DNA of 64,000 bases from the NCBI GenBank assembly GCA_949710005.1, contig OX453278.1, positions 2,042,501 through 2,106,500 on the forward strand, read 5' to 3'. The notes beneath the pieces are model-generated. The model saw only the letters and a program-made list of their open reading frames with translations, had not been told where the DNA came from and searched no databases. The DNA is from Ricordea florida (taxonomy: Eukaryota > Cnidaria > Anthozoa > Corallimorpharia > Ricordeidae). The position numbers and the translations under genes were made by a program. Positions 34,721 through 50,950 of this stretch are shown here, in pieces (position 1 is the stretch's first letter; each line of letters begins with the position of its first letter).

Positions 34721-35000
34721 ACTACTATGTAAGCGTGTTTATAAGTTCGTTTTTAGGTTATTTTCAAATTTGACAGGAAAATCTCTGTCCTTTTTAGCTT
34801 ACGGGTTATTTTCAAATTTGTCTGAAAATTAAACAGAGATTTTTTAGCTTACGGGTTAATTTTAGATTTATCAGAAAAGGTAGGTGTTTTTAGCTTACAG
34901 GTTATTTTTAAAATTTGACTGAAAATTAAGCAGAGATTTTTTAGCTTAAATTTATAAGTTCGTTTTTTCAGATCACAAAAAAATTGATTTAAAGGATAGG
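34721..35000 (+). repeat. Polinton left terminal inverted repeat
   Basis: About 280 bp, matching 50672-50950 in inverse orientation with one visible substitution and a 1-nt A-run difference. It contains four TAGCTTA-bearing units about 46-50 bp apart (34795, 34845, 34891, 34942), bracketed by two TTTATAAGTTCGTTTTT copies. It ends inside the shared promoter element of the polymerase gene. Confidence 0.95.
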
Positions 35001-35020: not shown

Positions 35021-38000
35021 ATGGAAAAAAAAGAAAGTTTTGTAGAAAAGCCAGAAGAAAATGGCAAAATAATAAGAAGCTTAATAATAAAACAGTTAGT
35101 AAAAATTATCAAAGAAAAAGGTAAAAAATTACCAAAAAATGTAGTTATGAAAGAGTTGCGTAAAATTCCAGAAATTGAAAAGTTTTTCGAAAATAATCCA
35201 AGCCAATTACAAATTCCAATTCAAGAAATTGGTTTATTTCACGATCAACCACAAAGCCCAATTCTTGATGAGCCGGTACCTGAAATTAATGTTCCAATTC
35301 TCAAGCCAAAGAATATTTTCCGGGTAATGGATAAAGAAAAGTTTTCCAAAAGGCTTGAAGAATTGGCAAATGAAAACATAAAATTTAATGGTAGTAATAC
35401 TAAAAGTAAAACAAAAAGAAAGGTAAATATATCTGACAGTGTAAGAGATGAATTGAAGGAAAAAACTAGAAAGAAAAGAACAACAACCCTCAAAATATTT
35501 TCAATAAACCTAAATGAAGATGATCCTCTAATTCGAAATAACCGGAGAATAAATGAAAATATTATTAGAATTAGGAGGAATCTAAATAATGATTTGACAG
35601 AAACAATTTATAATGAGTTGGAACCTCAAATAGAAATGGGGGTAAGAATTGTTTTCAGTTTTTCTGCTTTGATTCAAAGAGGAAACGGAGAAATAGCTTA
35701 TCACGTACATACATTTAGAAGCGGAGGAACTTTTAATTCCCTTTCAGAAATAAAAAAATATATAGAGAGGTGTGAGGGTGAGAGATTGAGCTTAGAAGGA
35801 GATGCTTGGATGAGAGCATATTTACCCCCAGAAAAGAAGATTAATAAATCAGGTGTTAATGAGGGTGGAGTTGAGTTTAGAGAAGTACAAATAAAAGTTA
35901 TTAATACTAGACAGCCTTTGGTTGGGTGTGGAAGATTACCCGATGAATTACGAAAGAAAAGATGTATTTACTCTGTAGATGATAAAGATGATAATCTCTG
36001 TGTATGGAGGTGTTTGGCTATTCTAATGAATATTCTTGATGGTAAACAAAATCCCAAAAAAATTAAACAAAATCCTGAAAAAAGAATAGAGAAAAGATCA
36101 TTATATCTAGCTAGAACTTTTTATGGCAACAAAAAACTAAAAAAAGAAGATGTTAGATCAACAAAATTGGTTGATTTTGAGAAAATTTCAAAGGTTTTCT
36201 CCATAAACATCCGGGTTTATGAGCAGAAAGATATAAAAAATTTTAAGGTTTGGAAACTGGTGTTTGGGAAAAATAATTTCGAAGATGATTTACCAAGTTT
36301 AAATTTAGGTCTTTATAATAATCATGGTTTTTTCATTAAGGATCTAGACCTTCTTGCCCAAAACTGGGTATGTCAAGGATGTAAACAAAAATTTACCAGA
36401 CATGAAGATTTAAAAAGGCATTTTACCAATGAGACATGCACAGGAGGAGAGACAAAAATATTATGCACGGGAGAAAAGATAAAACACATCATGAATGAAT
36501 CTGACAAAGTTTTTTATGGGGGTAAAATAAATTTTAGTTATAAAGCATGTAGGTGGATAGAACACCAATCTAAAATTATGGGTAAACATATTCATCACGC
36601 GCTTTGTGGTCATGGTGGCGAAAGGTGTTATAGGGATGAGGAGGGGAATGAGATTTTGTTTGCCGGATACGAGCCTGTCACAAATACAGTTTTTGAGTTT
36701 TATGGATGTAAATGGCATGGGTGCCCGTGTTCAGCAATCGACAAAATTAAATATAATGAAACTATTGGAAGGGAAAATAGGATAAAAAGCTTAGGTTATA
36801 ATGTAGTGTCTGTTTGGGAGTGTGAAAATCCTGAATTACCCAAAATATGGTTCAAAAAGAAATTTAATCCATATCCCTATTTTATTGATTACGATTTTGA
36901 GGGATTATTACAAAAAGAAGATAAACAGATTACCGATGATTTAATTTTCACCCATACTCACATTCCAGTTAGTGTTGCACTAATCGATAATTTAACAAAA
37001 AAACCCGTTTTTATTTGCAACCAAAATCCTGATCTCCTCATAAAAGAATTCGTTGAAAAATTGGAGGAAATAAGAAAAATTATAGTAGAAAAGGTTAGAG
37101 AAGAATACCCGCTTCCTGATCAAGATTCCTTGCAAAAAAATGTCTTACAAAAATATGAAGAATGGTGTAATCAAGTACCTGTTTTTGGGTTTAATAGTGG
37201 AAAATATGATATCAATTTGATTAAAAGGCATTTTATAAAACACATGACCGATAGAACAAGGGATATTTTTATTGCGAAGAAACAGAATAGGTATATGTTT
37301 TTAACAACACCGAATTTCAAATTCTTGGATATAATGTCCTACCTTGCGCCTGGAGTTTCTTTTGATAAGTGGTGCAAAGCAAACAATTGTCAAGCCCAAA
37401 AACTTGTACTTCCTTATGAAAAATTGGACGGATATGATAAGCTTTCCTTAGTTGGACCCGTGAAACATGAAGATTTTTACTCTTCCTTGAAAAAGAAAAA
37501 CATTTCCAAAGAAGAATATGAAGAATATTTGCTAGAATTCGAAAAGAGGGGCTGTGTTACAATGTTAGACTGGTTGAAAGAGTATAATTTGAATGATGTT
37601 ATTCCCTTTCTAGAAGCTCTTGAAAAAACAAGGCGTTTATATTATCCAGACGAAATTGATATATTAAAAGATGCCGTTTCCATCCCAGGCGTATCAATGA
37701 GGGCTGTTCTAAATAAATATCAAAAAATGAAGAAGAAAGGTGATCCTGAATTGTACGCCCCAGGACAATACTGTATTCATAGGTGCTGTAATAATGAGTT
37801 TTGCAAAAACTGCCAAAAGATAAGAAAAGATTGTAAAATATGCGACAAAAACAAGATTTATAAACTATTGAAAACGGGTATGGTTGGAGGCCCAAGTATT
37901 ATATTTATGAGATATGCGGAGGCAGAAAAAACAATGATTCGCCCTCATAAATATAAATTTCCGGAAAATTGTGTGCGAATTGCTGGCTATGACGCAAATG

Positions 38001-39397
38001 GTTTGTATCTATACTGTTCTGGACAAGAAATGCCATGCGGAAAAGAAGAATGCGTTGAGGTTGAAAATCCATCGGATCCTAAATTTATTAAGAAGATTTG
38101 CGAAGATATTCTTGACGGAAATCTTTTCGGATTTTGTCAAGTTGATATTCATACCCCTGATCACCTAAAAGAAAAGTTTGAAGAATTTTCACCTCTATTT
38201 ATTGTAGATGAAGTTCCTGAATATTTAGTACCAGAGCACATGAAAGAATATCAATTAGCGACAGGTAGAAAACATCTAAAAGCCAATAAAAAATTGCTTG
38301 GTGTTTCCAAGGCAAAAAAGATATTTTTATATACACCTATGATAAAATGGTATCTTAATCATGGCTTGGAGATTACCGCCATCCATAATATTTTAAAGTA
38401 TGAATCGGGAAGGCCCTTTGGATTTTTTCCAAAAGAGGTGGCAGACGCAAGAAGAGATGGAGATATTGAAGTTTTATTGGAACAACTAAGTAAAGCTTTT
38501 GATGAAAACAAGATTGATGATGTAGTAAAAATTACCAATGAATTAAACCAATTTCCCGATATATTTAAAGTTATTGAAGAAAATAAAGATATCAAAGTAT
38601 TGCTTGAAAAACTAAAACCAAAGTACAAAGGTTGTAAAGAATTAGCCGACACGAATAAACTTAGGGGAAATTCTTTTTATGGTAAAATGATAGAAGATAA
38701 AGAAAAACATAATATTACAAGGTATACTCAGGATGAGGAAGAGGTTGAAAAAGCCTTAAGATCTGCGTTCTTTGAGGATCTTAATGAAATAAATGACACA
38801 TATGAAATAGTAAAAAGAAAAAGATTAATAAAAATAGACAGACCCTACCAATGCGGAATAGCGGTGTATCAGCTAGCAAAATTAAGAATGCTGGAATTCT
38901 ATTACGATTTTCTGGATAAATATGTGGATAGAAAGGATTTTGAGTTGATACAAATGGATACTGATTCTATGTACATGGTAATCTCGTCTGAAAATTTGGA
39001 TGATATTATAAAACCCGAAATGAGAAAAGAATATTTTAATGGGGGAAAAGAAAAATTCCTATCAACTTCTAAATATCATGACAAGACCCCGGGCTTGTTC
39101 AAAAAAGAGTTTGTTGGCATACGAATGATTGCAATTTCTTCAAAATGTTATTACGCGGAGGATGAGAAAGGAAAGGCAAAGTATAGCGCTAAAGGCATAA
39201 TTCATCGTCAAAACGAACTAAACTGGAATGGCTACTGGGCGGCTTTAAAAGGGGCAAATGATATGGCACAAAATACAGGATTTAGAGTTAATGATAATCA
39301 AATTGTGACATATTCACAAAATAAAAAGGGATTGAATGCATATTATGATAAAAGATGGGTTTATGAGGATGGAATTCACACAAAACCATTATATTAG
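35021..39397 (+). CDS. polB: Protein-primed family B DNA polymerase, 1458 aa
   Basis: Replicates the element from a protein primer. Exonuclease motifs: DYDFEG near residue 623, FNSGKYD near 724-729 and YNLND near 855-859. Polymerase motifs: A, YDANGLYLY near 990; B, NKLRGNSFYGK near 1211; C, MDTDS near 1312-1315. The key acidic residues are present. A roughly 600-residue N-terminal extension includes NLCVWRC near residue 326 and NHGFFIKDL near 430, which could be a Cys-His protease-like pair, and a C2H2-like finger (CQGCKQKFTRHEDLKRHF) near 452. No break is seen, so it is probably functional. It ends tail to tail with the integrase, overlapping 4 nt. Confidence 0.96.
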   Translation: MEKKESFVEKPEENGKIIRSLIIKQLVKIIKEKGKKLPKNVVMKELRKIPEIEKFFENNPSQLQIPIQEIGLFHDQPQSPILDEPVPEINVPILKPKNIFRVMDKEKFSKRLEELANENIKFNGSNTKSKTKRKVNISDSVRDELKEKTRKKRTTTLKIFSINLNEDDPLIRNNRRINENIIRIRRNLNNDLTETIYNELEPQIEMGVRIVFSFSALIQRGNGEIAYHVHTFRSGGTFNSLSEIKKYIERCEGERLSLEGDAWMRAYLPPEKKINKSGVNEGGVEFREVQIKVINTRQPLVGCGRLPDELRKKRCIYSVDDKDDNLCVWRCLAILMNILDGKQNPKKIKQNPEKRIEKRSLYLARTFYGNKKLKKEDVRSTKLVDFEKISKVFSINIRVYEQKDIKNFKVWKLVFGKNNFEDDLPSLNLGLYNNHGFFIKDLDLLAQNWVCQGCKQKFTRHEDLKRHFTNETCTGGETKILCTGEKIKHIMNESDKVFYGGKINFSYKACRWIEHQSKIMGKHIHHALCGHGGERCYRDEEGNEILFAGYEPVTNTVFEFYGCKWHGCPCSAIDKIKYNETIGRENRIKSLGYNVVSVWECENPELPKIWFKKKFNPYPYFIDYDFEGLLQKEDKQITDDLIFTHTHIPVSVALIDNLTKKPVFICNQNPDLLIKEFVEKLEEIRKIIVEKVREEYPLPDQDSLQKNVLQKYEEWCNQVPVFGFNSGKYDINLIKRHFIKHMTDRTRDIFIAKKQNRYMFLTTPNFKFLDIMSYLAPGVSFDKWCKANNCQAQKLVLPYEKLDGYDKLSLVGPVKHEDFYSSLKKKNISKEEYEEYLLEFEKRGCVTMLDWLKEYNLNDVIPFLEALEKTRRLYYPDEIDILKDAVSIPGVSMRAVLNKYQKMKKKGDPELYAPGQYCIHRCCNNEFCKNCQKIRKDCKICDKNKIYKLLKTGMVGGPSIIFMRYAEAEKTMIRPHKYKFPENCVRIAGYDANGLYLYCSGQEMPCGKEECVEVENPSDPKFIKKICEDILDGNLFGFCQVDIHTPDHLKEKFEEFSPLFIVDEVPEYLVPEHMKEYQLATGRKHLKANKKLLGVSKAKKIFLYTPMIKWYLNHGLEITAIHNILKYESGRPFGFFPKEVADARRDGDIEVLLEQLSKAFDENKIDDVVKITNELNQFPDIFKVIEENKDIKVLLEKLKPKYKGCKELADTNKLRGNSFYGKMIEDKEKHNITRYTQDEEEVEKALRSAFFEDLNEINDTYEIVKRKRLIKIDRPYQCGIAVYQLAKLRMLEFYYDFLDKYVDRKDFELIQMDTDSMYMVISSENLDDIIKPEMRKEYFNGGKEKFLSTSKYHDKTPGLFKKEFVGIRMIAISSKCYYAEDEKGKAKYSAKGIIHRQNELNWNGYWAALKGANDMAQNTGFRVNDNQIVTYSQNKKGLNAYYDKRWVYEDGIHTKPLY

Positions 39398-40389
39398 ATT
39401 ATTTTCAAAACATAATTAGGGGGTAACTCTGTATCATACGGAATAACCTGTAATTCTTCACGCACAAAACCTCGTCTTGGCCCATCTTGTAAAAAGTATA
39501 AAACAGGTTGATTAGGAGAAATTCTACTTCCAGAAATATAATAAACTTTTATACTCCAAATAGGATCTGTGGCTCTTCTTCTTTCTCCGCCTTCAAGTTC
39601 ACCGGGAGATAATAAATATCTAACCTTAACTTCAGTTGGTAGTCTAACCTCATCAAGCCCTACAACCCGCTTGTAATTTTTAGTTTCAATATCAACCTCT
39701 TTCATTTTTATAGCCTTATCAGGCTCTTTACCGGTTATTCTCATAAGTGTATTATTCAAGGTTTTTAGAATAGCTGGTAATCTTTTCACCCATACACGCG
39801 ATCGATCATCACTAATCATTTCCTGCGCATATTGATGACTAAATAATTTTTCTCCTAATATTCTATTTGCATTTTCCACAAATGCTTGAGCTCTATGATT
39901 ACCAGCTTCACTTCTTTGCATTCTCACATTATGGTAATTCATGAGTTTAGTAACTTCACCCATAAATTCTTTTCCTGGATCAACCATTAATGTTTTTGGG
40001 TATTTCAATCTTCTAGAATATATTTTCTTAAAAGCTTCTGATATCTCTCGACTTTCTTTTGAGGTTAATGCTTCAGCATCTTTATATCTCGAGGCGATAT
40101 CAACCACAACTAACGCATATTTATATGTTTTTCTTCTAACTTTATCATGCGGTAAAAATAATAAATCTGCTTGGTGAATCTGATTGGGTTTATTCACAGT
40201 CCAATGTGGCCTAGGTATATATTTAGGAGCAGTTAGATAGATTTGCCATATTGCTTGTTTTTGCAGCCATTGTTTTGCCTCATTTTCACCCACTTTCGCT
40301 TTCTCAGCTAATTTAGGAATTGCAGAATATCCTTTCCAATATCCCCCAGTTGAATAATATATTTTTGAGAGTATATTTTCGTTGTTCAT
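39394..40389 (-). CDS. int: Retroviral-type (rve) DDE integrase, 331 aa
   Basis: Inserts the element into the host chromosome. Residues fit the D,D-35-E pattern: D75 (HQADLLF), D137 (MVDPGKEFMG) and E172 (AQAFVENANRI). An N-terminal helical region precedes the core. The C-terminal part (about 230-331) is beta-rich with a GPRRGFVREELQVI segment, and may bind DNA or chromatin. The start at 40389 is 31 nt from the divergent gene at 40420, so they share a promoter region. The frame is intact. Confidence 0.94.
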   Translation of the reverse strand: MNNENILSKIYYSTGGYWKGYSAIPKLAEKAKVGENEAKQWLQKQAIWQIYLTAPKYIPRPHWTVNKPNQIHQADLLFLPHDKVRRKTYKYALVVVDIASRYKDAEALTSKESREISEAFKKIYSRRLKYPKTLMVDPGKEFMGEVTKLMNYHNVRMQRSEAGNHRAQAFVENANRILGEKLFSHQYAQEMISDDRSRVWVKRLPAILKTLNNTLMRITGKEPDKAIKMKEVDIETKNYKRVVGLDEVRLPTEVKVRYLLSPGELEGGERRRATDPIWSIKVYYISGSRISPNQPVLYFLQDGPRRGFVREELQVIPYDTELPPNYVLKII

Positions 40390-40401
40390 TTAAAAATAAA
40401 C

Positions 40402-40416: not shown

Positions 40417-40419
40417 CAA

Positions 40420-40611
40420 ATGGTGTCGGAGGAAGAAAAAATAAAATTTACCGAATACCAAATCAACATTATGAAAAAAATTATTAGAAAAAAAATTCTA
40501 TATATGGAAGATGGCGATCAAATTTTTAATGTTTTAATTTTAATTCCTGAGGCAAGAGAAGGTTTATTAAAACATATTTCCAAGTTAGAAAATAGAACAA
40601 CACAGGTTTAA
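40420..40611 (+). CDS. Small Polinton protein of unknown function, 63 aa
   Basis: A charged, probably helical protein of 63 residues with no recognised domain and no membrane segment. Support for its reality comes from the upstream element AAGTATCTTATAAAT, shared with the capsid gene at 40641, and from its position in the packed plus-strand series. It could be a small regulatory or virion protein. No homologue is recognised by eye. Confidence 0.6.
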   Translation: MVSEEEKIKFTEYQINIMKKIIRKKILYMEDGDQIFNVLILIPEAREGLLKHISKLENRTTQV

Positions 40612-40621
40612 AGGTTAACTA

Positions 40622-40636: not shown

Positions 40637-40640
40637 TACA

Positions 40641-41873
40641 ATGACGTCTGAAAAAATTAACCCAAACAGAATTCCCAAAGAACCATTTGGTTTGAAAGCA
40701 GAATCAACATTGAATCGAATTACTCTCAATCCATCCACAGCCAGTCCTGGAGAAACATTATATATAAATATTCCAAAACTTTCTGAGAATTTGGTGATTG
40801 TGCCCGGAAGTGTATCTCTTCTATTTGATTTAGATGTTGAGGGTCATGCTAATAACACAGTTGTGAATAATGTGGGGCGTAATCTTGTAACCAGACTAAA
40901 AGTTCTTTTTGGAGGAGAAACATTGCAAGATACTCAAAGATATGATTTATTTCAAACATATCATGATTTATTCTTAACTGAAGAAGAGCGCGAAGATAGA
41001 TTAAAACAAGGTATTTCTTCGTTAAATATTAGAAAACTTAGAACAAAATCGGGAGATGCAAAAACACAAGATGCAAAAGAAGTTGCTCTCGCTAATGTTC
41101 ATGGTTCAAAGTATAGAATACCAATAAACCATCCTATTCTAAACGATCATGGCGTTTTTTATCCGAAAGCGTTGGAAAATCATTTAATATTTGAGATTAC
41201 ACTTGCCCCGATCAATAATATTCTTATTTATTCTGATACAACTAAAGCGCCATCTTATTCAATCAAAAACTTAGAGTTAGAATATTCTTCAATTTCTAGT
41301 GAATACTTAGCCCGTGAGGCTCAAGCAGCCTATCAAGTTGGTAAAGGATTCTTTTATGAAAATATTACCTTGCACAAAACTTTTACATTTTCAATTGGAG
41401 GGGATGGTGTTATTAATCAGCATATTAATTTGCCGAGAAGATCAATGACAGGAATATTGTTTTTGTTTTTGTTGCCACAAGCTGTAGGAGCAAGGGATTC
41501 AGAAAATTTTTATAATCCCGGTATTTCTTCAGTTGAAATTGATGTTGATGGCGTACCAAATAGAATATACTCTAGAGGAATGATTCCTTCCGATCTTTGG
41601 GAATCCGTGAAAAAAAGATTTCACCGGGAACAAATTTCATTGAAAGAAAAAGAATTTTACGCGGATAAGTTTGCTCTTTGGGTTGATACTAGAACTCATC
41701 CAGATAATGGTATTCATGGTGGTGGACTTGCTCTAAATAATACGCATGATGGCGTAAAAATAGAAATTAAAAGGAAACAAGGCGGAACTGGAACCGTAAC
41801 TTGTCATATGTTTGTTGTAGCAGATGCAATGATGGAGATTATGAATTCGGGTTTGAGAGCAATTAAGTACTGA
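40641..41873 (+). CDS. Candidate major capsid protein (double jelly-roll), 410 aa
   Basis: It lies directly before the packaging ATPase, the usual place of the Polinton major capsid gene. The protein is beta-rich throughout. PKALENHLIFEITLAP (about residues 175-190) resembles the strand between jelly rolls in large-DNA-virus capsid proteins, and IEIKRKQGGTGTVTCHMF lies near the C terminus. The length is slightly short for the family. No coiled coil or membrane segment is visible. Assignment rests on context and fold-like pattern, not on a catalytic motif; it could instead be another virion protein. Confidence 0.6.
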   Translation: MTSEKINPNRIPKEPFGLKAESTLNRITLNPSTASPGETLYINIPKLSENLVIVPGSVSLLFDLDVEGHANNTVVNNVGRNLVTRLKVLFGGETLQDTQRYDLFQTYHDLFLTEEEREDRLKQGISSLNIRKLRTKSGDAKTQDAKEVALANVHGSKYRIPINHPILNDHGVFYPKALENHLIFEITLAPINNILIYSDTTKAPSYSIKNLELEYSSISSEYLAREAQAAYQVGKGFFYENITLHKTFTFSIGGDGVINQHINLPRRSMTGILFLFLLPQAVGARDSENFYNPGISSVEIDVDGVPNRIYSRGMIPSDLWESVKKRFHREQISLKEKEFYADKFALWVDTRTHPDNGIHGGGLALNNTHDGVKIEIKRKQGGTGTVTCHMFVVADAMMEIMNSGLRAIKY

Positions 41874-41876
41874 CCG

Positions 41877-41887
41877 TCTAAAAACAT
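41877..41887 (+). promoter_or_regulatory. TCTAAA element before the ATPase gene
   Basis: TCTAAAAACAT begins 17 nt before ATG 41894, closer than in the other genes of this class. Confidence 0.4.
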
Positions 41888-41893
41888 AATGTT

Positions 41894-42538
41894 ATGATAC
41901 AAAAAAAAATCATGGAAGATTTACGAGATAAAATACCATTCCATTGTATTATAACAGGACCCACAAATTGCGGAAAAACAAAGTACTTAATTGAACAGCT
42001 CCGAGGTCCATTCCTGAAAGTTTTTGAATATATTGTGTTAATTTGTCCAACCTATTCTAAAAATAAAACCTATCATAATTTTGCTCGAGGAGATAAACAT
42101 TTCTATGTATTATCACCCGACGCAAGTAATATTGATGAGATTAATGAATTGCTAAATGATTGCCAAACTTTATTCTCTGGAACAAATACACTAATAGTTT
42201 TGGATGATTGCGCCGTTTCCTCCGATCTGAAGAAACGATCCAATAAGTTTATAGATTTAGCATTCTCCGGAAGGCATCATGGTTTATCGGTTTGGGTTCT
42301 AACTCAACAATTAACATCAATAGCAAAACCATTCCGAGAAAATGTAGCCTGCGTTGTTACTTTTCATAATCCTTCCCAGAAAGGGATGAAAATGTTTTTT
42401 GAAGATTATGGCGGTGATTTGGATTATGAATTAGGAAAAAAGTTTATGCATCTCCTGAAAACAGAAAAATATTCTAGGTTATGTTTGAGTTTGCGATATC
42501 CATTTAATTGCTATTTAGAGATACCAGAAGTGATTTAA
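41894..42538 (+). CDS. A32/HerA-like DNA packaging ATPase, 214 aa
   Basis: Predicted to pump element DNA into a capsid. Walker A is GPTNCGKTK (residues 22-30), Walker B is TLIVLDD (99-105), and VWVLTQQ (133-139) is a sensor-like strand, in the order seen in FtsK/HerA-superfamily packaging ATPases of Polintons, virophages and large DNA viruses. The length fits that family. The next gene starts 6 nt after its stop, so the two are probably cotranscribed. Confidence 0.92.
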   Translation: MIQKKIMEDLRDKIPFHCIITGPTNCGKTKYLIEQLRGPFLKVFEYIVLICPTYSKNKTYHNFARGDKHFYVLSPDASNIDEINELLNDCQTLFSGTNTLIVLDDCAVSSDLKKRSNKFIDLAFSGRHHGLSVWVLTQQLTSIAKPFRENVACVVTFHNPSQKGMKMFFEDYGGDLDYELGKKFMHLLKTEKYSRLCLSLRYPFNCYLEIPEVI

Positions 42539-42544
42539 CAAAAG

Positions 42545-43105
42545 ATGGCTAATATTGAAGATTACATTGACCAACCGGCAGAAAAAACTGACCGACCGCC
42601 GGTAAAAAATGATACCAATCAAAGTGAGGATCTTGAAATAAAACAAGAATCGCTTGCTATTCTCGCTGCCTTGGGAACAACAAAAGAATATTTGGGAGCT
42701 GAAATGAGTCTGGGTGATATAAAAAAATTATCTGCAAAAGATGTTGAAAAATATTTTAATCGTTATCAAGCAGTAATGGGTAAGAAAATTAATGGGGGAT
42801 TAGTAGATTCATCCTTGCAATTAGTTTCTAAACTTATTTCATATTTAGTTCCAGTTGATGATATAGAATCTCTTTGCAATGATTTGAAGAATGATGATTT
42901 GGTTAATCGCGAATTAACAAACATTGTTGGGTTATTAGCATTGAAAGCAGGAAGATTGGCAGCACTTGCTAGCGGACTATTTCAAGTAGCTAAACACGTT
43001 AAATTCAACAAAAATCAACAATTTTCAAGAGAAGAACCAGTAAATAGTAGCACAACTGATCAGGAAACTAAGCAATCTACTGAAGGTGTTGATACAGTAT
43101 ATTAA
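42545..43105 (+). CDS. Polinton protein of unknown function, 186 aa
   Basis: Residues 1-30 are polar and disordered-looking. The centre (about 35-165) is helical, with one moderately hydrophobic, Leu/Ala-rich stretch near 140-160 (IVGLLALKAGRLAALASGLF). The tail is polar. It starts 6 nt after the ATPase gene and has no separate promoter motif, so it probably depends on the ATPase transcript. No family is recognised; a virion or packaging role is inferred from position only. Confidence 0.75.
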   Translation: MANIEDYIDQPAEKTDRPPVKNDTNQSEDLEIKQESLAILAALGTTKEYLGAEMSLGDIKKLSAKDVEKYFNRYQAVMGKKINGGLVDSSLQLVSKLISYLVPVDDIESLCNDLKNDDLVNRELTNIVGLLALKAGRLAALASGLFQVAKHVKFNKNQQFSREEPVNSSTTDQETKQSTEGVDTVY

Positions 43106-43110
43106 ACAGA

Positions 43111-43121
43111 TCTAAAAACTT
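43111..43121 (+). promoter_or_regulatory. Virion-type promoter element (43143 gene)
   Basis: TCTAAAAACTT begins 32 nt before ATG 43143. A second TCTAAA lies at 43132. Confidence 0.6.
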
Positions 43122-43142
43122 ATTTGTAGCATCTAAATAACA

Positions 43143-43586
43143 ATGTCTGAACAATCTGAAGTAGAGCAAATTACTGCTGATCCAACACCTGAAAATAAAG
43201 ATACTAAAAAGAGGGAGAAAGATCCTAAAAAAGTAGCAGCTGGTAAGAAATTAGCAGAATATAATAAAAAAGCAAAAGAAGCATTGGCTAGGGAGATGAA
43301 ACGCGAGCAAAAAATAAAACAGGAAGAAGAGCAAGACCCTACTAGCCGCGGGGCAAATGAAAATACATATAGTGAAGCGAAATCGTGGCTACCAGAGTTA
43401 TCTTTTACTACTGTTTTATCTGTTGTCGGATTGGGGTTTACAGCATTTGATCTTTTTATGAGATATCGGGAAAAAGCTAGAGATGAATATTCCAGTAGGA
43501 TAGCTGATTTATCGCAAGTTCCACAATTACCACAACCAAAAAAGATACCATTTTCTGTAGCTCCAAAATCTTTAGGAATGGAATAA
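43143..43586 (+). CDS. Basic coiled-coil/membrane protein, 147 aa
   Basis: Residues 15-70 are highly charged and Lys-rich (KKVAAGKKLAEYNKKAKEAL), probably a long helix that could bind nucleic acid. One hydrophobic helix follows at about 88-104 (FTTVLSVVGLGFTAFDLFM). The C terminus is Pro-rich. This could be a DNA-condensing or membrane-anchored virion protein. No domain name can be given from the sequence. Confidence 0.75.
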   Translation: MSEQSEVEQITADPTPENKDTKKREKDPKKVAAGKKLAEYNKKAKEALAREMKREQKIKQEEEQDPTSRGANENTYSEAKSWLPELSFTTVLSVVGLGFTAFDLFMRYREKARDEYSSRIADLSQVPQLPQPKKIPFSVAPKSLGME

Positions 43587-43616
43587 TTATAAATTATTTT
43601 TTACTACATAAAGTTA

Positions 43617-43629
43617 TTTAAAAGTTTCT
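43617..43629 (+). promoter_or_regulatory. Virion-type promoter element (43650 gene)
   Basis: TTTAAAAGTTTCT begins 33 nt before ATG 43650. The following TGATGTAGTAAAAAATC leader closely resembles the leader of the 45273 gene. Confidence 0.55.
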
Positions 43630-43649
43630 TAATGATGTAGTAAAAAATC

Positions 43650-43868
43650 ATGTCAACTGAAAACAAACTTGTGAAAACTGTAACTGATTCAGCGGTACTT
43701 ATCGGATTAGGAGCTGGAGTTGGTTATGTGGCTAAAAAAGTAATGAAAGAATCATTTTTGAGCGACCCATCCTCAAGTATTACAAATTACGCAAAATGGG
43801 TTGCTGTATTATCCGGAAGTATGTATCTAAAAACATATTTAGAGGAACAAAAGATTTTACCAAAATAA
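43650..43868 (+). CDS. Small membrane protein, 72 aa
   Basis: It has two hydrophobic stretches: residues 12-30 (SAVLIGLGAGVGYVAKKVM, glycine-zipper-like) and about 49-62 (WVAVLSGSMYLKTYL). The stop codon is followed after one nucleotide by the next ATG, so the two genes are probably cotranscribed. Function unknown; a virion membrane component is possible. Confidence 0.7.
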   Translation: MSTENKLVKTVTDSAVLIGLGAGVGYVAKKVMKESFLSDPSSSITNYAKWVAVLSGSMYLKTYLEEQKILPK

Positions 43869-43869
43869 A

Positions 43870-44268
43870 ATGGCATTATTATCATTAGGAATGATGGGGA
43901 TAGGAGCAATATTGAATGCGACAGCATTTACCGGAGGAAATATTCTTGCAAAATATTTATCTGGACGCAATGTGGATACAGAAAAAATAAGACACGATAA
44001 AGCAATGGAAAAATATCAAAGAGATTACGCGGAATATCAGGAAAAAAGACAAAAAATGCTTGATTGGAAAATGAAGAAAAAAGATGAAAAATATCAAGCA
44101 TCAAAAAATATTTCGACTACAAATCAGGCTTTTGAATTGTATGGCCAAATGACTGAACCCAAATTCTCTGATTATTACAAACCAAACGATGACCAAAAGA
44201 CTGGGGAAATGGTATATGTTGGTGCCGGAATGTTAGGTTTAGGTTATGCAGTAAGTAAAATATTATAA
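43870..44268 (+). CDS. Membrane/coiled-coil protein, 132 aa
   Basis: A hydrophobic N terminus (residues 1-30) is followed by a charged heptad-like helix (about 37-78, EKYQRDYAEYQEKRQKMLDW) and a second hydrophobic segment at the very C terminus (about 114-131). The two ends could insert in one membrane as a hairpin. It starts 1 nt after the preceding stop. Function unknown. Confidence 0.72.
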   Translation: MALLSLGMMGIGAILNATAFTGGNILAKYLSGRNVDTEKIRHDKAMEKYQRDYAEYQEKRQKMLDWKMKKKDEKYQASKNISTTNQAFELYGQMTEPKFSDYYKPNDDQKTGEMVYVGAGMLGLGYAVSKIL

Positions 44269-44278
44269 ATTATTATTT

Positions 44279-44316
44279 TGTTATGTAACCAGTAATTTTA
44301 GTTATATAACATAAGG
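44279..44316. terminator. Hairpin between convergent genes (copy 1)
   Basis: TTATGTAAC, an 11-nt spacer, then GTTATATAACATAA form an imperfect hairpin with a small bulge. It lies between the ends of the 43870 (+) and 44325 (-) genes. Nearly the same sequence sits in the other convergent gap at 49560. Confidence 0.65.
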
Positions 44317-44324
44317 TATTATGA

Positions 44325-45173
44325 TTAGTTGTCCACCAAATTAAAACTCCACATTGAGCTTACAGAACCAGAATCTTCATTTTCATCATCATAACCAATA
44401 TAAGAAGAAGCAGATTCACCGTCAGAAATAATTACTTCTTCATTATATTTTTTGCGTGGAGCTAATCTTTTAATTTCTTTTTTCGTTTCAACAAGAGCAT
44501 CATAAAGTTTTACTTGCAATGAAATACGTGAACCAATAAATATTGATTCAATTTTGATTGAACACTCTGCGTGGCAACCTTTATTGATTAAATCTTTGGG
44601 GTTTATTGTTTCATTGCAATCCTCACTTCTAATATCATAAAATTTTGTAAGAATTTCTCCTTTTTTGTATGAAATTAATTTTGGATATAATGTTGGCCCC
44701 CTATCAGGAACTTTTTGGATATAAGGTTTGTTTTTACCATCTTCAATTTTTTCCATTTTCCAATATAGAGGATTAAAACCTCCCTTTGTTTTGGTGAGAT
44801 CAGATCTTTTCAACTCAAATCTATCAATTTCTTCTTTATTTTCTATAATATGATCAATGCAACAATCTACTATTTCATCAAATTTTTCTATCCATTTTTT
44901 CTCTTCATTAGTGGGTCTATTTCCACTCCATAAACATAAAGGAAAAGAATAAGTTGAAAAACTTTCAGAAACTCCAAATGAATACAAACGGCTAGTTGGA
45001 ATAACTAATTCTCCTTTAGTTCCATCTTCATTTTTTGAAAAAATTTTAATTCGTCTAAATTCTACTTTTGGTTTTTTATCTGGAACTTCCCCTAAAATTG
45101 GTTTGGAAAAGATCATACTTTCTTTTGTATTGTAATTATTAATATCTATTAATTGGGTATTTTCGTTCATCAT
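44325..45173 (-). CDS. SSB-like protein shared with large DNA viruses, 282 aa
   Basis: The block PTSRLYSFGVSESFSTYSFP and LWSGNRPTNEEKKWIEKFDE (about residues 60-108) resembles the conserved start of the DUF2738/DUF5871-type proteins of large eukaryotic DNA viruses, for which a single-stranded-DNA-binding role has been proposed. Further beta-rich sequence follows, with an acidic tail (about 240-282), typical of SSBs. Its promoter carries TTGATTTAAA, the element of the replication genes, which fits. The family assignment is from memory of the pattern and needs a profile search. Confidence 0.6.
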   Translation of the reverse strand: MMNENTQLIDINNYNTKESMIFSKPILGEVPDKKPKVEFRRIKIFSKNEDGTKGELVIPTSRLYSFGVSESFSTYSFPLCLWSGNRPTNEEKKWIEKFDEIVDCCIDHIIENKEEIDRFELKRSDLTKTKGGFNPLYWKMEKIEDGKNKPYIQKVPDRGPTLYPKLISYKKGEILTKFYDIRSEDCNETINPKDLINKGCHAECSIKIESIFIGSRISLQVKLYDALVETKKEIKRLAPRKKYNEEVIISDGESASSYIGYDDENEDSGSVSSMWSFNLVDN

Positions 45174-45202
45174 TTTAATTTCTGTATTTTATGTTCTTTT
45201 TT

Positions 45203-45217
45203 TTTAAATCAATTTTG
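45203..45217 (-). promoter_or_regulatory. Early-type element before the SSB-like gene
   Basis: On the minus strand AAAATTGATTTAAA precedes a poly-A stretch and ATG 45173. The GGATAGG half is not conserved. Confidence 0.5.
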
Positions 45218-45240
45218 ATTTTATTTCCAACTCTAGTTAA

Positions 45241-45253
45241 TCTAAAGATTTCT
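45241..45253 (+). promoter_or_regulatory. Virion-type promoter element (45273 gene)
   Basis: TCTAAAGATTTCT begins 32 nt before ATG 45273. It lies back to back with the early-type element of the divergent SSB-like gene. Confidence 0.65.
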
Positions 45254-45272
45254 TACTGATGAGTAAAAAATC

Positions 45273-46499
45273 ATGGCAGAATATATACCAATGGAAGATT
45301 TACCAAAAGAAACTGATGATGCTGGTGAAAATAATGATTGGGATTGGGATGATACATTTTATCAAACCGCAAACACATCTACAACCCTTGAACAAGATTA
45401 TCCTGGTTATGATGATTATAACCAATCAAGAGACAGGGCTCAATGGGAAAAACCACCAGAAAGAATGAACCTGGGAGAAAGAGATGGTGATTATGATAGA
45501 ATGAGAGAAGCTAGGCAAGAACTCAAACGATATTACCCAAATTACGAACCCAATGACGGCGCATTTAATGTACGTTTTGGAGAAAATAATAGCATAGAAG
45601 GAAAATTAAGTTCGGCAGTTAATAATGTGTGGCATACATTAGTTGATGAAAATGGGGTTCTTAATATAGAAAATTTACCAAAAACATTTAGAAAAGCTCT
45701 AGGTGCTGATTATGAAAGCATGTTGGAAAAATATAATAATACCCAGTTAGAATTGAGGAAATCTATTGAAGCAAATAATGAATTAGATAATGCATTGCAA
45801 GGATTGAAAGCAACAGCAGAAGTATATCCGCTGGAGATTGAACGATATGCGGAAAGAGAAAAAGAACTTAGGGAATTCATTGAGAGACAGCAGGTACAAA
45901 AAGCAGAAAATAAAAGTCTTTTCGATCAAACCGTTAAACAGAATGTGGAATTAAAAATACAAGCGGAAAAACTTTTGGATGAAGTAAAATTATACAAAGA
46001 AGAAATAGATAAATATAAGAAGGGCAAATCAAATGAATCAAAATTAAAACAAAGTAATGATCGATTAAAATCTGAGGTTGATAAATTAAAAGAACGACTT
46101 AGTAATAAAACAATTTCGAGTGAAGAACAATTATCAGATATTGAGGGCCGAAAAGATGAAATAATTAAAAATTTACCGTTACGGGAGAAACTAAAGTATA
46201 TCTTCAAAAAGTATGGTTTTACAGTTTTTGCTGTTCTAAGTGCGGTGGGCGCCATCATTGGAGTAATAGTTTCTAATCTTTCAAAGGGTTTATCTGCTCT
46301 GGGTAGGGGCGTTGGTAATGGGTTGAAAACTATAGGTAAAAAACTAGGTGAAATATTGCCAGGGATGGTCGGAGCAATAGTTAGCTTCCTTTTCAAAACC
46401 GCAGGCCAGGTTATTGGATTTTTAGGTGAGAATGCTTGGCTTTTGATAATGGCTGTAGTTCTATATTTTGTGGAAAGTATAAAAAAGAAGAGAAAGTAA
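45273..46499 (+). CDS. Coiled-coil protein with C-terminal membrane region, 408 aa
   Basis: An acidic disordered N terminus (1-90) is followed by a long coiled coil (about 155-295). The C-terminal region (about 308-402) alternates hydrophobic helices with Gly/Lys-rich stretches (GLSALGRGVGNGLKTIGKKL) and ends in a membrane helix and KKKRK. I recall similar C termini in other cnidarian Polintons. The amphipathic Gly/Lys segments suggest membrane remodelling or disruption, possibly during entry or assembly; this is inference. An overlapping frame at 45259 is a shadow. Confidence 0.78.
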   Translation: MAEYIPMEDLPKETDDAGENNDWDWDDTFYQTANTSTTLEQDYPGYDDYNQSRDRAQWEKPPERMNLGERDGDYDRMREARQELKRYYPNYEPNDGAFNVRFGENNSIEGKLSSAVNNVWHTLVDENGVLNIENLPKTFRKALGADYESMLEKYNNTQLELRKSIEANNELDNALQGLKATAEVYPLEIERYAEREKELREFIERQQVQKAENKSLFDQTVKQNVELKIQAEKLLDEVKLYKEEIDKYKKGKSNESKLKQSNDRLKSEVDKLKERLSNKTISSEEQLSDIEGRKDEIIKNLPLREKLKYIFKKYGFTVFAVLSAVGAIIGVIVSNLSKGLSALGRGVGNGLKTIGKKLGEILPGMVGAIVSFLFKTAGQVIGFLGENAWLLIMAVVLYFVESIKKKRK

Positions 46500-46503
46500 C
46501 AAA

Positions 46504-46514
46504 TTTAAAGACAT
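46504..46514 (+). promoter_or_regulatory. Virion-type promoter element (46538 gene)
   Basis: TTTAAAGACAT begins 34 nt before ATG 46538. It also argues against the earlier in-frame ATG at 46436. Confidence 0.5.
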
Positions 46515-46537
46515 CATACCGTTCAGTAAAATACAAT

Positions 46538-47155
46538 ATGGGTGAATACAATGGAATTTATCCTCAATTACCTAATAATAATTTCCAAACACAAAGCGGA
46601 GATAGTACAATTAATTTCAGGCTACAAAAATCAAGCGAGGTATTGCAAAATCTCGAGAAGGAAATTAAACATTACGAAGAAGTAAGAAAAAAATATAATA
46701 GAGCAAGAGGAATATGTACAAAAATTAGTGTTTCTGGCGGATTTATTTCAGTTCTTCTATCGGCAGGCGGATTAGGAACTTCTCTCACGGGTTTTGGCGC
46801 TGTTGTTGGCCTGCCTTTGGGTGTGGTTGGCGGTGTTTTTGGAGGTTTGTCGATTGGATTTGGTTTTGCTTCTAAAAGTCTTTCCTCAAAAGTTAGTAAA
46901 CATGAACAAACCGTTGCAATTGCAAAATCAAAATTAAACACCATTAGCGATTTAGTCTCAAAAGCTTTGAAAGATAATGTTATATCCGATCAGGAATTTT
47001 CCATAATTTTAGCAGAATTGGAAAAGTTTCAAAAACTGAAACAAGAAATACGACAAAAATTCAGAAAAGATTCAGAAAAAAACTTCGACATGAGTATGAT
47101 AAGGAAGAAAGTTCGAGAAGATCTATTAAAAGAATTAACCAATCCCGCTCATTAA
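46538..47155 (+). CDS. Glycine-zipper membrane protein, 205 aa
   Basis: The start is ATG 46538, not the in-frame ATG at 46436, because the promoter-like motif lies at 46504 and the longer frame would overlap the preceding gene. Helical residues 28-58 (SEVLQNLEKEIKHYEEVRKK) are followed by a Gly-rich hydrophobic hairpin at about 65-110 (GGVFGGLSIGFGFA), then two charged helices (LNTISDLVSKALKDNVISD). I recall similar proteins from other cnidarian and fish Polintons. Likely a membrane-associated virion protein; function unknown. Confidence 0.78.
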   Translation: MGEYNGIYPQLPNNNFQTQSGDSTINFRLQKSSEVLQNLEKEIKHYEEVRKKYNRARGICTKISVSGGFISVLLSAGGLGTSLTGFGAVVGLPLGVVGGVFGGLSIGFGFASKSLSSKVSKHEQTVAIAKSKLNTISDLVSKALKDNVISDQEFSIILAELEKFQKLKQEIRQKFRKDSEKNFDMSMIRKKVREDLLKELTNPAH

Positions 47156-47246
47156 AAATTTCTTTTGAAAGAACTGATGTTGGTTTTAATTGTTTTGCTG
47201 GAGTTAGAAGAGAGGTTAATTGATTTTACATCTTATTCTTAAAAGA

Positions 47247-47257
47247 TCTAAAGATCA
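47247..47257 (+). promoter_or_regulatory. Virion-type promoter element (47283 gene)
   Basis: TCTAAAGATCA begins 36 nt before ATG 47283. Confidence 0.6.
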
Positions 47258-47282
47258 CATTATTTGAAACACAAAGAATAAG

Positions 47283-48871
47283 ATGTTATTGGATGATTTC
47301 AAAACTCGATACCCTAGGGCAAGCCTTGAAAAATTTACATTTGTGAATGACTCGTTTGGTGGATATATTGAATGGAAAGTTAATGGAACAACAATTATGT
47401 CGAATGACGATCCTTCTGGAAAAACCTGGACTGAAAATCTTTCTAATAATTTGAAAACATTATTATGGCAAGATTTGGGGTTGAAAAATAAAGTTAGGGC
47501 AAGTTCATTTCCAAAAAGTTTAACATTTACAAAACAAACATATCCAATACCCGGAGTTAAATTTAATGAGTTTGCTAATGATGTATCAAAAATGATAAAC
47601 TTTTTGGACATATATGTTTCAGAAAAAGATCATTTCACTGCGGCAATGACAAATGTATTTAAAAATCAGACTGTAGGACTTACTAGTGGAAAAGAAGCTA
47701 GAGCCTGGTTAAATAAACCAAATATCAATCACTGGCCACAACAATTAAACATGGCGGTTTGGTGCGCAACATCTGGTTGCGGAGTTAGTTTAATTGAAAT
47801 TTTAAGTTACCCAAAAGTTATTAGAAGTTTTTTTGTTTTTCACGTATATTTTACAATAAGAAGAATATTACATGAATTAAATGTGCCATTACCCGGCGAA
47901 CAAACTTTTTCTTCAAAAAATAATCCATACAACAAAAATGTTTATAATAGATTGTGCGCAGAATTTGGGTTAAGCAATAATCAAGATTTTAAAGGATGGA
48001 ATAAACCTTTAGCTGATTTTAGATTTAAGGGCGGAGCAAACCATGGAGTTGGAGATGTATTGATTATGGAAAAGGATACATCCCTCCTGGAGGTGGTAGT
48101 TCACAAGCAGTAGGAGGAGGAAATCAAAACGTAAGAATTATCCATCCTAATGATCCTGATTCAAATATTTGGCCTAGTGAAAGAAATAAATTTGCGGATT
48201 ATGGCGGTAAAGATGAGAATTTAATATCTATGCTACGAAATGATCATTTTGTAGATTTTCAATATGCATGGTTTATACCAGAATCTGGTTATGGATTAAC
48301 TAAAGCTGGATTGGGGAGAATAAATAGATCAGTTGAGGCTTTTGTTTATTGCATATTGGGGGCCCAAGTTAATACTAGAAATTCTATTGTGGGTAATGGC
48401 GGAGGAGCAATCGAAACGCAAAATGAATTCAAAGCATTATTTGAAAGTAGTGTGATAGAAAATGATATTTCTAAATCCATTCAAAATTACCAACAATCTG
48501 TACAGGAAACTAAATTAAGGCTTGATTTGGCTGTTGCTCCAGGTGTTTGGTTGATGCCAAGTAATTTAATTATAAATACAGAAAGTGTGGTTGGGTACAA
48601 TAATAATCTGAAAATAGCAACAGAAGATATGAAATTTGGGGAAAATAATTCAATAAATGTCGAAACAAAAAATGTTGGAATACCTAATAATTTAGGAACA
48701 TCAAGGGTTTTATTAAATACCAATCCCCAACCAAGAAAACCTAAAATAAACAATAGCGATAAATCAGACGATGAGGAAGAAGTTAGTAATATAGAAACAT
48801 CTTCTCATCAAAATAATCTTATTGTTTTAATGCTTGCTGGAGGATTATTATCTTGGTTTTTATTTCGTTAA
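47283..48871 (+). pseudogene. Large Polinton virion-type protein, -1 frameshifted
   Basis: The first frame (47283-48113) encodes 276 aa. The reading frame then continues only in the -1 frame, open from about 48065 to 48871 and ending in a membrane helix (LIVLMLAGGLLSWFLF). Only the first part has an upstream promoter motif, and the second part lacks a good start near its beginning, so the two were probably one protein of about 530 aa. The break is near ATTATGGAAAAG (48063-48073). It may be a 1-nt deletion, an assembly error or, less likely, programmed frameshifting. The function is unknown; the size, Asn/Gly-rich content and terminal anchor would suit a surface protein. Confidence 0.7.
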
Positions 48872-48888
48872 TGTTTTGATTATATAAA

Positions 48889-48899
48889 TCTAAAGATGA
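48889..48899 (+). promoter_or_regulatory. Virion-type promoter element (48922 gene)
   Basis: TCTAAAGATGA begins 33 nt before ATG 48922. Confidence 0.65.
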
Positions 48900-48921
48900 A
48901 TATGATGTAATCAAAACAAAA

Positions 48922-49554
48922 ATGCTAAGTATTACAATGTACGATTCAGAAAGTAGGATTTATTTAGATCCGCCGCTGAAAAATATTCGGGAGATACAGC
49001 TCCTGGATTGTAATATACAAACCAAAAGATTGATTAATTTCAAGGATGAACAGACAATATTATATGGCAAGAATCAGAGCTTCATAATTCAACCGGGCAC
49101 ATATTCTCTTAGCGGCATTCAATCAATCTTTCTTAATGATCCTGGTCTGGAAAAAATAACAATAATTGAGACTGATACTATTGACTATCTTTATTCAAAT
49201 AAGAACTCCAAAGTTATAATTACGAGAGGATTGTCAATTGGTTTAGGAGTTCCTATAGTTTTAAATCCTGGTAAATTATACCCCATAAATATACAGATTA
49301 GGGAACCGCTGAGACTCATGTGTAGTATAGTGGATAATAAGTCGTCATATATGAATAACGCCAAATATGGAGAACTTGTGAAACTAGCGCCGTCAAACCT
49401 ACTTGCAAACATACCCTCAAAGGATTATCCGACAATTCCGGTTCAAAAATATGAGAACCCCATAAACCACTTTGATTTAACTATCTTAGACAATGAATGG
49501 AAAAAACTTAATTTAAGGGGATTGCCAATAACTTTTAGTTTAAGATTTAGATAA
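48922..49554 (+). CDS. Candidate minor capsid (penton-like) protein, 210 aa
   Basis: Beta-rich with no membrane helix. The C terminus (HFDLTILDNEWKKLNLRGLP then ITFSLRFR) looks like the last strands of a single jelly roll, as in minor capsid proteins of Polintons and virophages. Its length is in the expected range. It is the last plus-strand gene and converges on the 49637 gene with a hairpin between. The assignment depends on this pattern and on the need for a penton in a capsid-forming element. Confidence 0.5.
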   Translation: MLSITMYDSESRIYLDPPLKNIREIQLLDCNIQTKRLINFKDEQTILYGKNQSFIIQPGTYSLSGIQSIFLNDPGLEKITIIETDTIDYLYSNKNSKVIITRGLSIGLGVPIVLNPGKLYPINIQIREPLRLMCSIVDNKSSYMNNAKYGELVKLAPSNLLANIPSKDYPTIPVQKYENPINHFDLTILDNEWKKLNLRGLPITFSLRFR

Positions 49555-49559
49555 ATTTT

Positions 49560-49594
49560 TGTTATGTAACCAGTAATTAGGTTATATAACATAA
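49560..49594. terminator. Hairpin between convergent genes (copy 2)
   Basis: TTATGTAACC, an 8-nt loop (AGTAATTA), then GGTTATATAACATAA. The AACC/GGTT inner stem and TTATGT/ACATAA outer stem pair with a short bulge. It is nearly identical to the copy at 44279-44316, and also sits between two convergent genes. Confidence 0.65.
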
Positions 49595-49636
49595 TTATTT
49601 CTAATTAATCCTCACCTCATCTTTCTTTCAAATCTC

Positions 49637-50032
49637 TTAAATCAATTTCTTGTTCATACGACATTCTTTACATTTTTGTTTTTGTTTGTTATGTTCGCAT
49701 ATTTGTGATCCTCCACATTCTTTACAACATTGTTTTTGTTTATTATGTTCGCATATTTGAGATCCTCCGCATTCCTTACACCGATATTTATATTTATTAT
49801 GCGCACAATTATGCCCATTACATTCGCTACAAAATTTTTTTATTTTTCCATGGTCACAAATAATTCTGCTAATGGGGAAAACTTTTCCAATTAAATCAGT
49901 AATTTCCTCATCTTTAAAATTTGAAATTTCATCAATTAGTTCTTGCTTACTCATTTTTGCTCTTCCTTTAATTTCAAGATCTTTCGCTATTATTTTTAGT
50001 TCATAAGTATATAAATCTCTTAATTTATCCAT
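49637..50032 (-). CDS. SAP-like protein with Cys/His repeats, 131 aa
   Basis: Residues 1-40 (LRDLYTYELKIIAKDLEIKG) look like a SAP or Rho-N-type DNA-binding helix pair. From about residue 58 follow four C-x-H...C-x2-C units (C-DHGKIKKFCSEC, CAHNKYKYRCKEC, CEHNKQKQCCKEC, CEHNKQKQKCKEC), three joined by a GGSQI-like linker. Similar CEH...CKECGGS arrays occur in proteins of giant viruses. It is probably a zinc- and DNA-binding regulator. The early-type promoter fits a regulatory or replication role. Confidence 0.7.
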   Translation of the reverse strand: MDKLRDLYTYELKIIAKDLEIKGRAKMSKQELIDEISNFKDEEITDLIGKVFPISRIICDHGKIKKFCSECNGHNCAHNKYKYRCKECGGSQICEHNKQKQCCKECGGSQICEHNKQKQKCKECRMNKKLI

Positions 50033-50052
50033 AACTAATCTTTATGTATATT

Positions 50053-50074
50053 ACCTATCCTTTTAAATCAATAC
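50053..50074 (-). promoter_or_regulatory. Early-type promoter embedded in an upstream gene's end
   Basis: On the minus strand ATTGATTTAAAAGGATAGG serves the 49637-50032 gene, 21 nt before its ATG. It also encodes the last residues and TAG stop (IDLKG-stop) of the 50055-50648 gene. Confidence 0.65.
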
Positions 50075-50648: not shown

Positions 50649-50670
50649 TTCTTTCTAATCCTTTAGGAGG

Positions 50671-50690
50671 ACCTATCCTTTAAATCAATT
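50671..50690 (-). promoter_or_regulatory. Early-type promoter at the right terminal repeat
   Basis: ATTGATTTAAAGGATAGG on the minus strand, the counterpart of 34981-35000. It drives inward transcription of the 50055-50648 gene. Confidence 0.65.
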
Positions 50691-50950
50691 TTTTGTGATC
50701 TGAAAAAACGAACTTATAAATTTAAGCTAAAAAATCTCTGTTTAATTTTCAGTCAAATTTTAAAAATAACCTGTAAGCTAAAAACACCTACCTTTTCTGA
50801 TAAATCTAAAATTAACCCGTAAGCTAAAAAATCTCTGTTTAATTTTCAGACAAATTTGAAAATAACCCGTAAGCTAAAAAGGACAGAGATTTTCCTGTCA
50901 AATTTGAAAATAACCTAAAAACGAACTTATAAACACGCTTACATAGTAGT
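50672..50950 (-). repeat. Polinton right terminal inverted repeat
   Basis: Inverse of 34721-35000, with the same internal TAGCTTA-type units. Its inner edge carries the promoter element of the adjacent minus-strand gene (50055-50648). Confidence 0.95.

Follow-up and report, generated by a model that had tools for sequence, protein, structure and literature searches.

The 64,000-nucleotide (nt) stretch of Ricordea florida DNA analysed here (assembly GCA_949710005.1, contig OX453278.1, positions 2,042,501 to 2,106,500; hereafter the window) contains, at positions 34721-50950 (about 16.2 kb), a Polinton/Maverick-like element whose genes are the subject of this analysis. Most of its genes are preceded, at a closely kept distance, by a short TYTAAAR box, from which a run of A residues follows at fixed spacing. 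Arguing from sequence and from analogy, we lean on balance towards the view that most genes or tight gene pairs of this element carry a compact bipartite promoter with the layout of vaccinia intermediate and early promoters, which would be read by a nucleocytovirus-type RNA polymerase acting in trans. To our knowledge, the transcription of Polintons in large genomes, and their need for a helper, is an open question; a positioned two-part promoter predicts explicitly where transcription of most genes should begin and makes that question testable. Among the titles and abstract openings listed by literature searches naming Polintons or adintoviruses, none describes a promoter motif in animal Polintons, and a paper on vertebrate Mavericks contains the word promoter twice (PMC8097293); we regard the novelty of a Polinton promoter as provisional.

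A box and an A-run in fixed register

A first-pass annotation of the window had placed T(C/T)TAAA(A/G) 32, 33, 32, 34, 36 and 33 nt before the start codons at 43143, 43650, 45273, 46538, 47283 and 48922, and these distances are exact. It had also described the motif as an element of virion genes, missing from the polymerase, integrase, SSB-like and Cys/His genes. A positioned promoter-like motif is strongly supported, and its absence holds for the integrase (0/45 distinct upstream regions), but the polymerase (-33), SSB-like (-35) and Cys/His (-35) genes carry the box as well; it is element-wide and thus does not mark virion genes. Altogether the box stands 32-36 nt before 13 of the 17 gene starts in the window, the misses being the integrase, 42545, 43870 and 48230. 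Twelve of 15 tested genes have it at -38 to -29, the three without it being the integrase, 42545 and 43870; 1000 dinucleotide-preserving shuffles averaged 0.46 such genes and never gave more than 4. The element contains 40 TYTAAAR sites on both strands. Fifteen of them are followed by an ATG at a distance of 29-38 nt, and all but two of these belong to the 13 gene starts counted above.

The same position recurs in copies across the host genome. Upstream 60-mers were collected for the 15 window genes and their homologues from starts assigned without regard to the motif, as the methionine nearest the position aligned to residue 1 of the window protein; 24 alignments were dropped, 20 that began after residue 15 and 4 without a methionine within 12 residues. 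The 406 upstreams comprise 316 distinct and, once similar ones within a gene are removed, 106 non-redundant sequences, for which the window and 38 other loci together provide 39 sources. The box lies at -38 to -29 in 205/316 distinct upstreams, which represent 205 of the 224 box occurrences in the 60-mers: capsid 45/45, packaging ATPase 32/50, g42545 29/49, g43143 40/43, g43650 26/26, g43870 0/17, SSB 3/4, g45273 6/6, g46538 8/9, g47283 4/9, g48922 8/9, Cys/His 2/2, polymerase 1/1, g50648 1/1 and, as noted, none for the integrase. In the non-redundant set it is present in 77/106 (70/92 virion-type or other and 7/14 replication-type upstreams) against a shuffle mean of 3.1 (standard deviation 1.5, maximum 8, n = 300), and off-peak windows of ten bases hold 0-3 boxes each. 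Moreover, an unbiased 6-mer count ranks TTTAAA first, with 50 occurrences at the peak against 0.8 expected from the flanks. A chance origin could draw on the AT-richness of the element (30-34% GC per 2-kb segment between 34001 and 50000), but it is refuted by the shuffles, the check that had been proposed with the first description, and by the control sites below, and we give it practically no weight.

The second base of the box is T in 50 (TTTAAA) and C in 27 (TCTAAA) of the 77 box-bearing upstreams, and orthologous promoters exchange the two forms, C and T swapping at this position. This bears on the proposed parallel with the TCTA late motif of the giant virus CroV, which mavirus and the type 4 endogenous mavirus-like elements also carry (PMC8547959, PMC5294985). 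Here too, a short AT-flanked motif stands upstream of genes of an integrated Polinton relative, and TCTAAA precedes four of the six window genes of the first description. In the Polinton, by contrast, TTTA outnumbers TCTA, and the box also precedes replication genes (polymerase, SSB, Cys/His); none of the early genes has TCTA, the box being present there as TTTAAA, and the CroV/mavirus arrangement of TCTA before late genes and not before early ones is not reproduced. As the promoters do not conserve a C at this place, the parallel is weak, and a TCTA-type late motif marking virion genes only is largely refuted and, as we see it, very improbable.

The A-run keeps its distance to the box rather than to the gene. 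All 70 box-bearing virion-type upstreams have A at box +26, and 94% have it at +27, while the distance from box to ATG varies between 30 and 38 nt. In 2000 rotated-leader controls the best column reached 47/70, compared with the 70/70 seen, and A occupies +26 in 45/137 TYTAAAR sites that have no ATG at the proper spacing and in 6/17 sites in the host flanks of the window. An A at -3 of the ATG, part of normal start-codon context, is likewise found in 70/70; both registers being complete, they are real and separate, and start-codon context cannot explain the A at +26 in the 42/42 upstreams in which the ATG lies 33-38 nt from the box. The spacer is exchangeable: the A-run stays in place in all 12 clusters of dissimilar spacers, including two GC-rich ones (example spacers of 80% and 60% GC). 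The 70 upstreams are not independent because they are related by descent; if each spacer cluster is counted once and the highest frequency of A among the controls (0.48) is assumed, the probability of this outcome by chance is about 1.5e-4. When the 29 box-less upstreams were searched over -44 to -26 for four near-variant classes, 23 had one, and all 23 had A at +26 in at least one, to which we attach little weight because, for a variant lying at -26 to -29, that A belongs to or borders the start codon or its -3 context.

We suggest that most genes or tight gene pairs have a compact core promoter of their own, which for virion-type genes would consist of TYTAAAR, a sequence-neutral spacer of about 19 nt and an A-run initiator at box +26/+27. 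RNA would start within the A-run, 4-12 nt before the ATG, giving leaders of 4-12 nt. A translation or RNA-processing signal, such as a leader element or a trans-splice acceptor context, would equally lie near the ATG and would fit the invariant A at -3; the box, however, is in register with the A-run and not with the ATG, no common AG acceptor is evident by eye in the listed leaders, and promoter blocks can move between genes, all of which leaves such a signal a slim chance. This mobility is suggested by locus L035, where a capsid-type promoter block stands before g43650.

Small GC-rich palindromes (for example around CCGCTTCGCGG and CCGAAGGG) are scattered between genes in loci L031-L068, and some of them sit inside promoter spacers with the spacing unchanged, both as judged by eye. 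Inverted repeats around the box give an impression of generality in the window but fail as a general rule: 7/70 virion-type promoters have a stem of at least 9, against about 0.4% of shuffles, and the repeats are real in some lineages only.

In the window, the start of gene 43870 directly follows the stop codon of the gene before it, with which it is probably co-transcribed, and the box-less ATPase of several elements may be read with the capsid gene. The start codons of the integrase and of the small open reading frame (ORF) 40421 face each other across 31 nt, and the first base of the ORF 40421 box is the complement of the first base of the oppositely directed integrase start codon; because of this overlap, the 31 nt would constitute a two-way promoter. 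In L031-type elements the integrase start codon abuts the capsid box, by eye.

An upstream motif that differs between gene classes

What separates the gene classes is a motif upstream of the box. Of the 14 replication-type upstreams, 6 have AAAANTGA at -41 to -47, namely those of the polymerase and 50648 and every one of the four from SSB; the six integrase and two Cys/His upstreams are without it, and among the 92 others it occurs once, at -11. This form was taken from PMC5294985 and sought after TTGA had been noticed in the window, and because of this post hoc choice, and because polymerase and 50648 share the edge of the terminal inverted repeat (TIR), the independent count is smaller. Furthermore, AATTGA adjoins the box in 5/8 against 0/74 upstreams (p 2e-6, or 2e-5 with one TIR copy removed). 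Of the temporal control suggested in the first-pass annotation, some class division is thus supported, with AAAANTGA upstream of the box, and not the box itself, as the separator. Replication-type genes would share the box core, in many cases preceded by AAAANTGA, and the two classes may correspond to early and post-replicative genes.

Promoters of further SSB copies were sought at guessed positions and were present in 2/8 pieces. Outside the counts, inspection by eye found AAAATTGATTTAAAA in the SSB-side piece L079 and TTGAATTAAAAG without an exact box in L073, as well as, in L071, an ORF at 1039 with the box 32 nt ahead of it and, in L070, TTTAAAA 31 nt before a Cys/His-like ORF.

Candidate polymerases

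Among 16 ORFs of the element scanned against Pfam, none was recognised as an RNA polymerase, and the promoters must therefore be read either by host RNA polymerase II (Pol II) or by the polymerase of a nucleocytovirus helper. Pol II could read the same bipartite promoter, with very short leaders, if TYTAAAR acted as a weak form of TATA to which TBP or a related factor binds. It is the simplest source of a polymerase for an element that sits in the host genome assembly and has none of its own recognised, and T-rich boxes about 30 nt from the start are the usual Pol II layout. In addition, TTTATA variants lie at -26 to -28 in 3/6 integrase (as TTTATAA) and 3/5 g43870 non-redundant upstreams. However, TATAAA, the best TBP site, is nearly excluded at the box position, with 2 occurrences against 79 of TYTAAA (2/82 TNTAAAR at the peak). 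It is no rarity in the element: nine element sequences contain, on both strands, 121 TATAAA, 172 TTTAAA and 149 TCTAAA, and against a background of 70 TATAAAR and 168 TYTAAAR (boxes included) the exclusion at the peak has p 2e-8 (Fisher). Pol II TATA-to-start spacing is, moreover, 30-31 nt, whereas 26 nt separate the start of the box from the invariant A; immediately before +26, 70% of the sequences have A, not a pyrimidine. We regard reading by Pol II as a serious possibility that nonetheless falls short of an even chance.

The layout has closer counterparts among viral promoters. The vaccinia intermediate promoter has an AT-rich core at -26 to -13 and TAAA at -1 to +3, separated by a spacer whose length matters and which makes no direct contacts (PMC12917281). 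The Polinton arrangement is alike in its AT-rich core about 26 nt before an A-run initiator and its spacer of set length, a core at about -26 with a fixed-spaced A-run being found in 70/70 box-bearing virion-type upstreams. It is unlike in that the vaccinia core has no firm consensus (PMC12917281) and the Polinton core is TYTAAAR, and in that the Polinton initiator is an A-run with TAAA in only 42/70, not a strict TAAA at -1 to +3. The poxvirus early motif is given as AAAANTGAAAA (PMC5294985), with AAAANTGA / AAAAATTGA as poxvirus/mimivirid early forms (PMC5294985, PMC13196603). It is matched by AAAANTGA upstream of the polymerase, SSB and 50648 genes; unlike the viral motif, the Polinton copy adjoins a TTTAAA box that further genes share, and it is missing from the Cys/His and integrase genes.

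Linear yeast virus-like elements are akin to Polintons. In those of the pGKL type, an upstream conserved sequence (UCS) lies 20-40 nt before each ORF and has been likened to the poxvirus early motif, and the polymerase slips on a TAAAN initiator (PMC6211774). Common to both are a short upstream element before ORFs and an A-run initiator, and stem-loops have been proposed at the gene ends of the yeast elements; these elements, in contrast, have their own poxvirus-like RNA polymerase and a UCS of the form ATNTGA (PMC6211774), while no polymerase was recognised in the Polinton. It is because the layout matches vaccinia intermediate/early promoters and these polymerase-bearing elements that we infer a nucleocytovirus-type polymerase, supplied in trans, as the reader. 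A further and more tentative idea, which we consider somewhat unlikely, is that the Polintons of this host are transcriptional satellites whose early and post-replicative nucleocytovirus-type promoters would be woken only by nucleocytovirus polymerase and factors, as mavirus is by CroV, but in an animal.

In favour of a helper, matches to the VLTF3 family of late transcription factors stand above the cut-off at four places in the host genome and in 0/14 control genomes. Two of the four have stops inside the match, that on C15 among them, and a third looks frame-broken by eye; the surroundings of the C12 match hold more VLTF3-like pieces in other frames, also by eye. The C15 and C12 places are unlike the fetched Polinton copies, and L081 shares only a repeat with the window at about 54.8 and 60 kb. 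Queries of viral contigs with the ATPase, an ATPase alignment and a capsid alignment returned no relatives, and the capsid promoter-block pattern had zero hits there.

Several points weigh against a nucleocytovirus-type polymerase acting on promoters of this kind. The VLTF3-like pieces plausibly indicate past contact with nucleocytoviruses at most, and not promoter reading; no helper virus was found; and the promoter-block pattern had a single hit in viral contigs, on a contig with phage tail-like genes (by eye), which is taken as chance. The TAAA of the 42/70 virion-type leaders lies within box +21 to +30, and the others have CAAA, GAAA and the like. In replication-type genes the A-run is less regular (A at +26 in 5/7 box-bearing upstreams, with G in the window SSB and T in 50648), and their sample is small, with 14 upstreams of which 6 are integrase without box or motif and 2 are Cys/His without motif. 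The box is missing in 18/50 ATPase, 20/49 g42545, 5/9 g47283, 17/17 g43870 and 45/45 integrase upstreams. Finally, all loci come from one genome and are related by descent, and the absence of an RNA polymerase is weak evidence because several ORFs, that of the DNA polymerase included, match nothing.

The element, its genes and its gene ends

The element is assigned to the Polintons/Mavericks by its 262-nt TIRs, by an apparent 5-bp target duplication (TATGT at 34716-34720 and 50951-50955, just outside the TIRs; Polinton duplications are usually 6 bp), by an rve integrase (PF00665 above cut-off) and by a capsid gene together with a Pox_A32 packaging ATPase. The capsid assignment draws on double jelly-roll fold matches of a weak structure model (mean pLDDT 57), which serves as a fold hint only; its 50 best Foldseek rows include the double jelly-roll capsids of PBCV-1, an iridovirus, mavirus and PRD1. 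The gene at 35021-39397 is a putative protein-primed family B DNA polymerase, with family B motifs by eye and no Pfam or PDB sequence match; PHROGs and PDB sequence searches contributed little overall. For the ATPase, the start at 41912 was chosen, where homologue N-termini align, over the longer ORF start at 41894, from which the box would be at -17. The promoter of gene 50648 is not independent of that of the polymerase because it lies at the inner TIR edge.

In the host genome (538 Mb in 48 contigs), the capsid protein query gave 6183 first-look candidates, of which the best 102 were scored, all 102 at 96% or more, and a diverged ATPase query gave 5015, of which the best 150 were scored; capsid DNA in copies L031-L060 has diverged to 74-89%. 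The family seems very large and hugely expanded in this genome. Capsid hits down to 60% identity suggest that related Polintons occur in other host species as well.

Table 1. Features of the element (window coordinates) and VLTF3-like matches elsewhere in the host genome (G000; contig:position). Distances are relative to the ATG.
Feature	Position	Strand	Remarks
Left TIR	34721..34982	.	262 nt, 100% complementary to 50689-50950
Early-type AAAANTGA, polymerase promoter	34980..34987	+	-41; abuts box
TTTAAAG box, polymerase	34988..34994	+	-33 (ATG 35021)
Polymerase gene	35021..39397	+	motifs of family B by eye; nothing in Pfam at E 0.1
rve integrase	39394..40389	-	no TYTAAAR; TTTATAA at -26 in window copy
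TTTAAAA box, small ORF 40421	40389..40395	+	-32
TTTAAAG box, major capsid gene	40607..40613	+	-34; A-run at +26 (40633)
Major capsid gene	40641..41873	+	Capsid_N, E 7.5e-4, under curated cut-off; Foldseek double jelly-roll matches
TCTAAAA box, packaging ATPase	41877..41883	+	-35 from 41912
Packaging ATPase (Pox_A32)	41912..42538	+	E 6.4e-12, scanned from 41894
TCTAAAA box, gene 43143	43111..43117	+	-32
TTTAAAA box, gene 43650	43617..43623	+	-33; within long inverted repeat in window copy
SSB-like gene (label of the first-pass annotation), DUF2738	44325..45173	-	E 6.6e-55
TTTAAAA box, SSB-like DUF2738 gene	45202..45208	-	-35; after AAAATTGA (45209-45216)
TCTAAAG box, gene 45273	45241..45247	+	-32
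TTTAAAG box, gene 46538	46504..46510	+	-34
TCTAAAG box, gene 47283	47247..47253	+	-36
TCTAAAG box, gene 48922	48889..48895	+	-33; within inverted repeat
TTTAAAA box, Cys/His gene 50032	50061..50067	-	-35; after TATTGA, no AAAANTGA
TTTAAAG box, gene 50648	50678..50684	-	-36; after AAAATTGA
Right TIR	50689..50950	.	partner of left TIR
VLTF3-like late transcription factor matches	C15:18661274, C8:15643102, C12:7234181, C6:16806129		

A single gene (47283-48871) appears to be broken into ORFs 47283 and 48230 in the window copy: 7/8 diverged relatives have one ORF of 508-552 aa, and the remaining one has a shorter ORF of 409 aa plus a fragment. A hairpin of the form TTATGTAAC...GTTATATAA stands at convergent gene ends in the window (44279-44311 and 49560-49591), and the same convergent-end hairpin recurs in 3/8 loci among L061-L068 (L061:2081, L064:6474 and L065:6560); it is possibly a 3'-end signal. 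A general hairpin rule for gene ends was rejected, as too few of the 15 window ends stand out against the best of 60 mononucleotide shuffles (one exceeds it and three equal it); two of these four ends are the convergent-end hairpins.

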